From positions 1 to 33,717 of the IMG/VR virus record IMGVR_UViG_3300043449_000970: 33,717 nt of DNA. The stretch is one strand, 5' to 3'. The position numbers and the translations under genes were made by a program. The notes beneath the pieces were generated by a model. It searched no databases, was not told the DNA's origin, and saw only the letters and a list, made by a program, of their open reading frames with translations. Positions 12,716 through 16,473 of the stretch are shown one piece after another (positions within the stretch are counted from its first letter, which is position 1; each line of letters begins with the position of its first letter). This DNA is from a virus.

Positions 12716-13107
12716 TCTTGTGAGGCCTTACGTCTTTTGGTCTGCGCTTTCACGCTGTACAAGTCCTTGAGCGGGGGCCGCGGCTCCGGTGCCGGGATAG
12801 GCTTTCGGCTCGGGAGCTTCTTGCGCCACGCCTCAATCAGCAGCCGCCGCTCCTTTACCGCCCGATCCGCGACCCGCTTTCGGAATATCGCCCACTTGCC
12901 GTGGACCGCTCCGTGACATTCGTCGCAGAGCACCGCCAAATCGGTGTCCAGTTCGTCGAAGAGCCGGACGTAGGTCAGGTGGTGGAGGTGCAGCTTGTAG
13001 CCGGACCCGCAGACCTCACACCGCCCGTTCCGGGCCGCGATCATCTCCCGACGGCGGGCCTTCCACTTCGGGGACCGGAGGTACTTTCGGTATTCGGCGT
13101 TAGACAT
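12712..13107 (-). CDS. HNH endonuclease (131 aa)
   Basis: Classical HNH core: GRCEVCGSGYKLHLHHLTY (Cys30, Cys33, His42, His43) and VLCDECHGAVHG (Cys61, Cys64, His65, His69), preceded by SPKWKARRREMIAARNG, a very common lead-in of this family. It is a metal-dependent DNA nuclease. ATG at 13107 overlaps the stop of the replisome-organiser-like gene by 8 bases; the longer frame to 13179 is rejected because the family normally begins near SNAEYRKYLRSPKW. The C-terminal 60 residues are basic and Pro-rich, likely a DNA-binding tail. Confidence 0.92.
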   Translation of the reverse strand: MSNAEYRKYLRSPKWKARRREMIAARNGRCEVCGSGYKLHLHHLTYVRLFDELDTDLAVLCDECHGAVHGKWAIFRKRVADRAVKERRLLIEAWRKKLPSRKPIPAPEPRPPLKDLYSVKAQTKRRKASQE

Positions 13108-13675
13108 TCCCGCACCCCGGCGCGTGAGTTTGGACCGGACGCTTCGACCCCGCGACCTCGGCCAGCACCCCGTCCCCACATTCGGCGCAGAACTTCGTCG
13201 GCATCAGGTTGACGTGACCGGGTGCGTAGTTTCCCACACGGTGCAACGCACCCCCACTAGTAGTTCGTCCGTCCGTCCGTCCGTACCCGCGACGCTCGCC
13301 GGTAGTGTCGCGCGACGGTCGCGCGACGGTCGCAGGATGGTCCCGCGACAATCGCAGGCGCTCCCGATCACGGTGCATCTTTTCTAACGCCTTGCCGTTG
13401 TGCTTGTCCCACGCTTCCCAAATGCCATCCTCGTTCAGGAAGATGGCCCGCAGCATCGCCGCGAACTGCCCCCGCTCACCCGACCACCCCGCCCATCGCT
13501 CAATCAGCCCGTCTGGGATGTCCTTTAGGTTCCCATCCGCGGCGTGTTCTGGGAACTTGGTCAGTAGCAAGACCAGTAACCCAACGGCGTGAGCCGCGTC
13601 GATGTTGAGGTGGTAGGCAATCGTGTGCACGTCCGGGTCGTCGCCTATGGCGACCGCTACTCTGATCCAGTTCAT
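13100..13675 (-). CDS. Replisome organiser / replication initiator-like protein (191 aa)
   Basis: The N-terminal 110 residues match the winged-helix pattern common in phage replication-organiser proteins: NWIRVAVAIGDDPDVHTIAY, AVGLLVLLLTKFPEHAADG, FAAMLRAIFLNEDGIWEAWD and a basic RDRERLRLSRD tail. Such proteins bind origins and load the host helicase. The second half is disordered and ends in a possible zinc knuckle (FCAECGDGVL; HAPGCGNV). DNA encoding residues about 105-123 forms an 11-bp tandem array, and a 4-bp tandem array follows. ATG at 13675 has no Shine-Dalgarno sequence; instead a U-rich run and a layered stem abut it. Assignment rests on the N-terminal pattern and gene context. Confidence 0.72.
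   Translation of the reverse strand: MNWIRVAVAIGDDPDVHTIAYHLNIDAAHAVGLLVLLLTKFPEHAADGNLKDIPDGLIERWAGWSGERGQFAAMLRAIFLNEDGIWEAWDKHNGKALEKMHRDRERLRLSRDHPATVARPSRDTTGERRGYGRTDGRTTSGGALHRVGNYAPGHVNLMPTKFCAECGDGVLAEVAGSKRPVQTHAPGCGNV
13266..13284. repeat. CGTC tetranucleotide tandem repeat, 4.75 copies
   Basis: Nineteen consecutive bases are a perfect 4-bp repeat inside the C-terminal half of the replisome-organiser-like gene. Because the unit is not a multiple of three, gain or loss of one unit would shift the frame and change the cysteine-bearing C-terminus. It sits 22 bp from the 11-bp array and may be part of the same DNA element. Confidence 0.85.
13307..13361. repeat. 11-bp tandem repeats, iteron-like, candidate replication origin
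   Basis: Five consecutive 11-bp units: GTCGCGCGACG twice exactly (13307-13328), then GTCGCAGGATG, GTCCCGCGACA and ATCGCAGGCGC. The perfect units contain the 8-base palindrome TCGCGCGA. The unit length is close to one DNA helical turn and is not a multiple of three, so the repeat is conserved at DNA rather than protein level. By analogy with lambda, whose origin iterons lie inside gene O, this is a candidate binding array for the encoded initiator. No A+T-rich unwinding region is obvious beside it. Confidence 0.55.
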
Positions 13676-13834
13676 AAAGAAAAAGAAGGCCCCGGCGTTC
13701 TCCCCTGTGAGAAGTCCGAGTCAATCAAGACGCGGAAGGGGATACTTACCGGGGCCGTCAGTTGTGACTACGGTGCAACGCTTCTCACGACGTTGCACGT
13801 CCTAACCTACACGCCACCCACCAAAGCGCAAGCC
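13676..13834 (-). promoter_or_regulatory. Structured leader upstream of the replisome-organiser-like gene
   Basis: A 159-bp gap. An 8-bp hairpin GTGCAACG/CGTTGCAC with a 10-base loop lies at 13773-13798. Downstream on the minus strand, GGCCCCGG/CCGGGGCC pairs 13688-13695 with 13749-13756. Nested inside it are TCCCCT/AGGGGA (13701-13706 with 13737-13742) and TCCG/CGGA (13715-13718 with 13733-13736). The outer stem is followed directly by TTCTTTTTCTTT and then the ATG at 13675. This looks like an intrinsic terminator or attenuator placed against the start codon. No convincing promoter was found in the gap. Confidence 0.55.
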
Positions 13835-14122: not shown

Positions 14123-14339
14123 CGTCCCGCCGCAAGGCCCGGAGGACCAAGCCCTCCATCGTCGGGAGCTCGTGCCCACACCACGGACACTCCGTCCACG
14201 GCGTCACCACGTCCCGGCTCCGCCACCAGACCCAGCCGAGCCCCCAGACGTAGCTGAACTCGCCCAAGTCCCGCGCCATCTTCCGGCCCGGACACGGGAT
14301 CGGTGACCACGTCCGACAGACTACCGGCTTCTCCGTCAT
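14115..14339 (-). CDS. Small Trp/Cys-rich protein with zinc knuckle (74 aa)
   Basis: Contains CPWCGHELPTME, a CxxC knuckle with a nearby His, and upstream CRTWSPIPCPG, so one zinc could be bound by two cysteine pairs. The stretch VWGLGWVWWRSRDVV is unusually rich in tryptophan. ATG at 14339 overlaps the PP-loop gene stop (ATGA). No function recognised; its coupling to the PP-loop gene suggests they could act together. Confidence 0.65.
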   Translation of the reverse strand: MTEKPVVCRTWSPIPCPGRKMARDLGEFSYVWGLGWVWWRSRDVVTPWTECPWCGHELPTMEGLVLRALRRDDE

Positions 14340-15133
14340 ACGCCGCACATCCCTTCGCACTCGTTGACGAACATATTGACCTGTCCCCTCTCCTCGGCGG
14401 TTGAGAAGTCCACCTCAAGCAATGGGAGGAGACTGCGATGCGCGAACTGCCGCCCCTTCATCCCACGGACTGGCTCGCGGATCGCGTTGTCGATTTCGAC
14501 CGCATCGGCCCAGAGCGCCGGGTCCGACTTGATGGCCCGCCATTCGGTGTTGCTGTGAAAGGGACAGGCGATACAACTGGAGCGCGGCGGCTTGGGGTAG
14601 CCGTGCCGCTGCATCCACGCCAAGCAGTCCCGCCGAGACATCCCGAGTTCAATCAGGGGCCAGACGTTCGTGGCCCACTTGTCTCGCGCTGGCTTCATCC
14701 GCAACGCCTCATCGGTGCTGATGCCGATGAGCGTCTCGCACGAACCAGCCGGGATGCGCTGACGCGGCTGGTAGCCGAGGAGCTCGCGCTGCTTACGGAT
14801 CAGCGGAGCAATCTTGAACTCGGCGGTGCATTGCCGACGATTGATGCCACTTGATCCGTCCGCGTGTTCCACAAACCACGGGACAGCGGCGTACCGACCT
14901 CCTGCGCCGGACTGCTTGTTCAACACACTCTGACGCAGACTGCCAGCCGTCACGCGGTACACCGGGAACGGCAACTGCGTCTCCAGCCAGTCCAACCAGC
15001 GATACACGGCGGGCGGCTCCCATTGCGTGTCCGCGAAGATAGCCGCGTCCACCATCGGCACCTCGCCGTGCTTGATGAGCAGGGCAAGGGTTGAGGACTG
15101 GACGCCAGCACCTAATGACAAGAACCGCTTCAT
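14336..15133 (-). CDS. PAPS reductase/DndC-like PP-loop protein (265 aa)
   Basis: Adenine-nucleotide alpha-hydrolase fold. The nucleotide-binding PP-loop is seen as SLGAGVQSST (6-15), followed by IFADTQWEPPAVYRWLDWLE and RRQCTAEFKIAP (Cys102), and a CIACPFHSNTEWRAIK block (Cys187, Cys190) typical of this phage family. Related enzymes use ATP or PAPS chemistry in sulfate reduction, tRNA thiolation or DNA phosphorothioation; which reaction this one performs is unknown. ATG at 15133 overlaps the phosphoesterase stop (ATGA) and gives the family-like MKRFLSLGAGVQ start; the frame to 15175 is longer but unlikely. No dnd partner genes are present. Confidence 0.87.
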   Translation of the reverse strand: MKRFLSLGAGVQSSTLALLIKHGEVPMVDAAIFADTQWEPPAVYRWLDWLETQLPFPVYRVTAGSLRQSVLNKQSGAGGRYAAVPWFVEHADGSSGINRRQCTAEFKIAPLIRKQRELLGYQPRQRIPAGSCETLIGISTDEALRMKPARDKWATNVWPLIELGMSRRDCLAWMQRHGYPKPPRSSCIACPFHSNTEWRAIKSDPALWADAVEIDNAIREPVRGMKGRQFAHRSLLPLLEVDFSTAEERGQVNMFVNECEGMCGV

Positions 15134-16473
15134 ATCGTCCCCCGTCGGGGAGCGCGGTGCAGGTCGGGACTCCACGCATCAGAGCCGACCAGCGCCCCCC
15201 CGGAATGATACACGAACGCCTCGATCATCCGAGGGCTGACCGAGAACTTCTCGTCCGAGTGGTACTGGTCGGGCGGACAGAGCGCCGCGTGGGTCCGAAC
15301 AATGACGCCGCCGTGCGTCTCGATCGCCGCCTTCCCGTGCAGGTGGCCCGTGTGCAACTCGCGGTAGATGGTCTGGCCCCACTCGACCGCGCATTGCGCC
15401 GCCATCACCTCGGCGAGCCGCTTCTTCCCCTTGTCGCCGTGGTCGAGCCCGATCAAGACCTTCCCGTGCCGCAGGTACTTGGTCGTCGTGTGCGTGTCGT
15501 CAATCGTCACTCCCTTATGTCGCCGGAACTCGGAGACCAAGATGCGTTGCAAGGCCCACGTCAACGTCCGGTCGTGGTTCCCCGGCACGAGCACCACCTT
15601 CGTCGGCACCCGCTCGGCGCTCGCCGCGATAAGGTCGAAGAGCACCTCGGTCCCCCGCTTGAGCATCTGCTGAACCCGCGTGTCGTAGTCGAGGACCGTA
15701 CCCTTCGTCGTCGCGCCCTGCCCGTCGTGGTGGAAGTAGTCGCCGAGGAGCCAAAAGTGACGCGCTCCCACCTTGCGGTCGTCGCCCGCCTCGAGCATCG
15801 CCGAGACCCCATCCCGGATCACCGCGATAGCCTTGCCCGTGTCGTAGCTGTCGGCCCCCGTCCCTTCCGCCCACGCGAGCTTGGCGACGTGCGGGTCGGC
15901 AATCACCACGCCTTGCAGGAGGTCGGACGCGACGGGCTTGGGTCGTGGCGCAAAGACTGGCTGACGTGATGCGAACGCCCCCGCGAGCACCGCCTCGACC
16001 TGCTCCAATGTCGAGGGTCCGGCCTTTGGCTTGAGCTTAACGTAGACGCGGTGCAGTTCCGTCGTCTCAACGTCCCCCTCGGGGCTCTTGGTCGCCACCT
16101 CGTACTTGGTCGCCTGCGACTCCGCGACCTCGAACCGCGTCAGGTCCGCGTCGATATGCCGCAGCAGGTCGTCCACGGTCTTGATGCGTGAGCCGTTCGA
16201 CCGAGCGACGATGCCGTCCGTCCCCGCCGACTGCTCCACCGCCTGCTCCCGCTGCGTCACCGGCGTCACGCCCTTCGGACGCTCGCCGACCTTGATGCCG
16301 TGCTTGCCCCGCTTGAGTTGCACCGCCGAGATGGTGCGGATCGGGACGCCCTGATGGAACTCGCGGTTCAACGTCTCGGCGACAACTGCCGCCCCCATCC
16401 CCTGCGCGGAAAGGGACGCGAGCCGCTCAAGCTCGCGGAGACTCCACGCGGTCAGGTCTTTGCGAGCACCCAT
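15130..16473 (-). CDS. Calcineurin-like metallophosphoesterase (447 aa)
   Basis: The two-metal phosphoesterase motifs appear in order: VVIADPHVAK (Asp193, His195), WLLGDYFHHDG (Asp245), VLVPGNHDR (298-301), GLDHGDKGK (His345) and HTGHLHGK (377, 379). The first 180 residues are a separate helical region with an N-terminal HTH-like stretch (LRELERLASLSAQGMGAAVV) and may bind DNA. Substrates could be nucleotides, RNA or DNA ends. ATG at 16473 and GTG at 16497 are both possible; neither has a clear ribosome-binding site and both overlap the small Cys-rich gene. It is coupled by overlap to the PP-loop gene, suggesting joint function. Confidence 0.9.
   Translation of the reverse strand: MGARKDLTAWSLRELERLASLSAQGMGAAVVAETLNREFHQGVPIRTISAVQLKRGKHGIKVGERPKGVTPVTQREQAVEQSAGTDGIVARSNGSRIKTVDDLLRHIDADLTRFEVAESQATKYEVATKSPEGDVETTELHRVYVKLKPKAGPSTLEQVEAVLAGAFASRQPVFAPRPKPVASDLLQGVVIADPHVAKLAWAEGTGADSYDTGKAIAVIRDGVSAMLEAGDDRKVGARHFWLLGDYFHHDGQGATTKGTVLDYDTRVQQMLKRGTEVLFDLIAASAERVPTKVVLVPGNHDRTLTWALQRILVSEFRRHKGVTIDDTHTTTKYLRHGKVLIGLDHGDKGKKRLAEVMAAQCAVEWGQTIYRELHTGHLHGKAAIETHGGVIVRTHAALCPPDQYHSDEKFSVSPRMIEAFVYHSGGALVGSDAWSPDLHRAPRRGTI

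Follow-up and report, generated by a model that had tools for sequence, protein, structure and literature searches.

A candidate replication origin formed by repeats inside the initiator gene of a phage and its relatives

Judging from sequence and conservation, an array of short palindromic repeats within the initiator gene of a phage is highly likely to be the iteron part of its replication origin, where binding, opening and helicase loading would take place. The analysed stretch, called the window below, is a whole IMG/VR phage record of 33,717 bp. Since respelled repeats are kept in the matching position by distant relatives, with a further simple repeat behind them, the array is very probably where copying of the phage genome starts. 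By analogy, the best reading is an origin situated inside its own initiator gene, similar to those of lambda O, SPP1 gp38 and TP901-1, in a family that has no Pfam model. Origins embedded in initiator genes are a known kind; the well-conserved variant itself is new. The gene, its parts and the elements around them are as follows.

13100-13675, minus strand: replication initiator (replisome organiser) gene, 191 aa, from PHROG and BFVD fold matches
13340-13675, minus strand: N-terminal domain, about 112 aa, proposed origin-binding domain, the sole part conserved family-wide
13306-13349, minus strand: candidate iteron array, four 11-bp units, core GTCGC|GCGAC, from TRF, unit comparison and the matching gene position in relatives
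13306-13316, minus (coding) strand: array unit GTCGCGCGACA, 10/11 bases as in GTCGCGCGACC
13317-13327, minus (coding) strand: array unit GTCGCGCGACC, the reference, 11/11
13328-13338, minus (coding) strand: array unit ATCCTGCGACC, 8/11 bases as in GTCGCGCGACC
13339-13349, minus (coding) strand: array unit GTCGCGGGACC, 10/11 bases as in GTCGCGCGACC
13350-13360, minus strand: degenerate flank, previously claimed as unit 5
13289-13293, minus strand: outlying GTCGC half-site between the array and the short tandem repeat
13263-13286, minus strand: short tandem repeat GTACGGACGGACGGACGGACGAAC, period 4, candidate opening or loading element
13257-13264, minus strand: motif ACTACTAG at the end of the short repeat
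13100-13225, minus strand: C-terminal tail, CxxC...H...C, set apart by DNA identity to the relative L002
13684-13758, minus strand: structured RNA-like leader upstream of the initiator start codon, outside the origin proper, from its fold z-score

The array has a period of 11 with 3.9 copies at 13307-13349 (TRF), and its units follow each other on the coding strand in the order GTCGCGGGACC ATCCTGCGACC GTCGCGCGACC GTCGCGCGACA. The original prediction, which correctly placed the array inside a replisome-organiser-like gene and left its strand (minus) unstated, counted five units over 55 bp. Four units, or 44 bp, stand; the fifth, with 5/11 matches, does not. The palindrome TCGCGCGA ascribed to the perfect units is present in both, and the only two exact occurrences of GTCGCGCGAC in the window are those in the array. 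The lag-11 self-match of the array is 27/36. This value was reached at any lag from 9 to 13 in none of 60 first-order Markov sequences of window size, and the periodicity was reached by one of 1000 synonymous codon shuffles of the initiator gene. Six further 36-bp positions of the real window also reach 27/36, and thus the strength of the repeat alone is not unique; the real evidence for the array is its position in the gene and its conservation. Nor is palindrome enrichment a main argument, as it is modest in the window and 33 of 1000 codon shuffles reach the observed level.

Residues 1-126 of the initiator match phrog_9474 (E 1.7e-20) and residues 2-115 match phrog_2509 (E 7.6e-10), both annotated as 'replication initiation protein'. 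An AlphaFold model of the N-domain, based on nine relatives, is helical throughout (mean pLDDT 84); among viral folds (BFVD), it best matches 'Primosomal protein 1' (E 8e-4) and 'Replisome organizer' (E 3e-3). Sequence and fold searches of the N-domain against solved structures gave no credible match, none in PDB, and so its DNA binding has no support from the fold. The window protein matches no Pfam family at E 0.1 and no NCBIfam family, phage_rep_org_N (TIGR01714) included; the nine N-domains match no Pfam replication family even at E 10. BUCT554 and epsilon15 have the N-domain and a DnaT primosome domain fused in a single protein, and immediately downstream of the initiator several relatives encode a DnaC/lambda P-type loader; these fusions and neighbours suggest that the initiator acts at the helicase-loading step. 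No helicase or loader gene was detected in the window.

We compared the window with 24 relatives from IMG/VR metagenomic phages, Gemmatimonadota genomes and isolated phages, the latter including epsilon15, Rac, phiPSA1 and Lagaffe. Repeated or inverted half-sites with divergent spelling occur directly past the N-domain in all 24 relatives, which are not mutually independent; no relative encodes the same protein without them. The half-site array lies at gene nt ~316-470 in 25/25 members, the window included, and in 16 of them no other stretch of the locus is as periodic. L023, Rac 442/2, VW-6S, BUCT711 and Xanthomonas SAC have half-sites, with periodicity not above the locus background. The spelling is GTCGC|GCGAC in the window, GTACC.C.GGTAC in L003, GAATG|CATTC in L004, GGGACA|TGTCCC in L011, GGAATTCC in L019 and GTWCG...CGWAC in L002, L007, L009, L012 and L013; one phage group has GTAACGC/GCGTTAC and another GTCCGC/GCGGAC. 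The linker protein sequence after the N-domain is not conserved among the relatives.

The array is followed by a second element. The original prediction of an origin caught the array and missed this adjoining repeat of 4-6 bp; as both are conserved after the N-domain in the relatives, the two together argue for the origin proposed there. In the window the second element is a GC-rich (GACG)4.8 repeat 20 bp past the array, and its periodicity (18/20 matches at lag 4) is equalled by no same-sized block elsewhere in the window. When the remainder of each locus is taken as the control, 19 of the 25 members have a 4-6-bp tandem repeat unmatched in their own locus; L009 comes next at 0.01, and the exceptions are L004, L013, L022, Carin1 and PAN70. 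Across 17 divergent members, Fisher p for an adjacent short tandem repeat is 4e-17. The repeat is usually purine-biased on the coding strand. It is spelled ACGA/ACGT in L002, ACGAG in L003 and L019, ACGAT in L023, GTAGAC in L011, AGAAG in epsilon15 and others, and GTAGA in a Vibrio phage and Lagaffe. Against the same control, DNA at or just past the repeat belongs to the least stable 2-13% of blocks in 19/25 members. The window has no marked low-stability region after the array, 52% of its blocks being equally unstable. In seven members, the window included, the short repeat ends in ACTACTAG-like DNA (ACTACTAG, ACTACAG, ACTACTGG, ACTGCTAG), the others being L004, L007, L009, L011, L012 and L019.

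By analogy with the lambda O, SPP1 gp38 and TP901-1 organisers, the N-domain would bind the palindromic half-sites (GTCGC/GCGAC in the window) cooperatively, probably as stacked dimers about one helical turn apart. Such binding would bend the DNA and put strain on the adjoining duplex, so that the coding-strand short repeat and, in most relatives, the unstable DNA around it could open or be captured single-stranded. The replicative helicase might then be placed at the opened repeat by the C-terminal part of the initiator, by a separate loader or by a host factor. Least certain is the part played by the short repeat, which may facilitate melting, be bound as a single strand by the initiator or DnaT-like parts, or favour a purine-RNA hybrid during transcription. 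More tentatively, one could suppose a widespread uncharacterised initiator family with a two-part in-gene origin code, made of fast-changing palindromic iterons and a 4-6-bp repeat read on one strand through single-strand capture or an RNA-DNA hybrid. It would be a phage counterpart of the bacterial arrangement of DnaA-box and DnaA-trio, working even in GC-rich genomes without an AT-rich tract. The order of palindromic repeats and then a short tandem repeat after the initiator N-domain provides a sequence rule for origins in many unstudied phages. As the units differ between relatives (e.g. the window, L002, L003), the joint change of initiator and origin specificity can be studied in this family as a natural experiment, and the constant short repeat makes the opening of a GC-rich origin directly testable.

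The repeats might have no function at the DNA level, arising as a by-product of a disordered protein linker of low complexity or of slippage where the sequence tolerates it. In about half of the members the period is 12 bp, divisible by three; in several relatives such units also yield repeated residues (TANGTANGTAN, PDGSPDGTPN), and in L003, L011, L013 and L023 the periodicity is attained by 8-33% of the codon shuffles. The protein-level argument is thus not closed for each member. We nevertheless consider this explanation very unlikely. In the window, L004 and L019 the periods are 11 bp and the protein has no repeat; the periodicity was reached by 1/1000 codon shuffles in each of L004 and L019 and by 0/1000 in L012, the linkers for the periodicity tests having been picked after the first relatives were seen. 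The half-sites occupy all three reading frames in the window array, and across the members they are found in either orientation and in several frames. The initiator of L022 is 117 aa long, and the periodic array persists past its stop codon, untranslated, which is the clearest single sign of the array working as DNA. Reading frames, codon shuffles and the L022 array favour selection on DNA rather than protein, as had been proposed at the outset, and a second repeat class at the matching place after the array would not be expected of a by-product.

It is also quite unlikely that the array is solely an operator, by which the protein binds its own gene for expression control and not for the start of replication. 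Palindromic half-sites do look like repressor operators, and regulation of the initiator gene is likely, given a separate operator-like inverted repeat upstream (13773-13798). However, the array lies 300 bp inside the gene, not at the promoter, no sigma-70-type promoter was seen near it, and it is followed by the short tandem repeat and often by unstable DNA; autoregulation could, moreover, coexist with origin function. DNA identity between the window and L002 is 62-84% in the N-domain, 41-58% in the array and 98% over the last ~130 bp of the gene, falling to background thereafter, as if the repeats marked a recombination hot spot at the joint of initiator-module swaps between phages. This would be highly improbable as the whole explanation: origins and initiator domains lend themselves naturally to exchange as units, so that the pattern could follow from origin function, and the palindromic half-sites and the second repeat would be left unexplained. 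Finally, short palindromic repeats can serve as nuclease, packaging (pac/cos) or integration sites, and endonuclease genes adjoin the initiator gene. That the array is such a site is extremely improbable, since 8-9 kb separate it from the terminase and head genes and since it accompanies the initiator N-domain in phages whose neighbouring genes differ.

GC skew, proposed earlier as a check, was uninformative as origin evidence: the cumulative curve of the window has a maximum close to the array, near 12.8 kb, where a bidirectional origin would call for the opposite sign, and in four relatives the curve does not turn consistently where the array lies. L012 has a perfect DnaA box TTATCCACA just past the array (gene nt 449), and L002 and L007 have a one-mismatch box TTTTCCACA at gene nt 476. 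As no DnaA boxes were found near the array in the window or in the other relatives, the DnaA box was rejected as a general part of the origin. Rfam, tRNA, promoter and terminator scans around the initiator gene gave no matches.

The lambda iteron unit is 18-19 bp long, compared with 10-12 bp in the window family, and the second element is a plain AT-rich tract in lambda and a 4-6-bp tandem repeat in the window family. The arrangement itself is similar. The lambda ori, with iterons and an AT-rich tract, lies in the middle of O (PMC7466680). In lambda and Stx phages, ori-lambda thus has an opening element next to iterons placed midway through the initiator gene (PMC7466680, PMC5043065), an order to which the array and the short repeat of the window, as a candidate opening element, would correspond. 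Unlike lambda O, the window protein matches no Pfam family, Phage_rep_O included. In SPP1, the oriL repeats lie inside gene 38 (PMC6316719). The gp38/oriL system resembles the window in having direct repeats inside the initiator gene, and it includes an unwinding element (PMC6316719), the place of which might be taken in the window by the short repeat; it differs in that the window protein has no family match to other organiser models in the libraries searched, and in that neither a helicase nor a loader gene was detected in the window phage. In TP901-1 and Tuc2009, the organisers ORF13 and Rep2009 bind direct repeats of their own genes, and these repeats serve as the origin (PMC8965321). The phage_rep_org_N model is touched only by the remote relative Lagaffe (E 0.11, below the cut-off) and not by the window. 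The initiators of PHROG 9474/2509 (epsilon15, Rac 442/2 YdaU, BUCT554) have, by sequence, the same N-domain family as the window and the same layout of half-sites and then a short tandem repeat, whereas in the isolated relatives longer C-terminal domains, of the DnaT type or others, stand in place of the short CxxC...H...C tail.

YdaU of E. coli K-12 (L034 5120-5977) has a different N-domain, DUF1376, and the linker of its gene contains TGTTCAAAC/GTTTGAACA repeats, an AGATAA-like short repeat and a C/G hairpin; the layout may extend to this family. According to PMC3945230, the Rac prophage has an active origin, oriJ. We treat oriJ as a lead and not as support for an origin in ydaU, because PMC3945230 does not place it in that gene and the K-12 N-domain differs.

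Every recognised gene of the window is encoded on the minus strand. The left part encodes portal, head and terminase proteins, the middle RusA, endonucleases, the initiator, a repair nuclease and lysis proteins, and the right part tail proteins, with the major head protein and a head protease encoded at the right end. The presence of head genes at both ends suggests a circularly permuted, nearly complete genome. A PAPS-reductase-like gene (14336-15175, minus strand, phrog_424, E 5e-49) lies beside the repair exonuclease gene and the replication region. The short CxxC...H...C tail of the initiator is common to the window, L002, L007 and L012. The last ~130 bp of the gene (13100-13225) are 90-98% identical to L002/L007, with far more diverged flanks, suggesting recent exchange of the C-terminal tail. 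A mosaic boundary thus appears to lie near the array. Module exchange with a joint near the origin fits the known behaviour of lambdoid phages.

The leader directly upstream of the initiator start has a fold z-score of -5.95 (window 13673-13765). The hairpin, at 13684-13758 (minus strand) in the window and 2914-2986 in L012, has a conserved internal loop UAAGUA opposite GAA and an outer stem GCCCCG.../...CGGGGC. It was also found in non-coding DNA of L049 (1-78) and L059 (1316-1395) with no initiator adjoining. The hairpin model scores E 5e-14 to 2e-20 on its four training members and has a weak match in L019 (E 2e-4), with most of the loop missing; it matched none of 150 Gemmatimonadota genomes, and the hairpin had no match in Rfam. 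Further upstream lies the operator-like inverted repeat GTGCAACG-N10-CGTTGCAC (13773-13798). A third copy is inside the gene, just past the short tandem repeat (13241-13248), and the 12-mer ACGGTGCAACGC has exact copies at 13238 and 13770. In L003, a 27-copy tandem array of 12-bp units of the CGCACTCGGCTG type is situated elsewhere in the contig (1252-1573).
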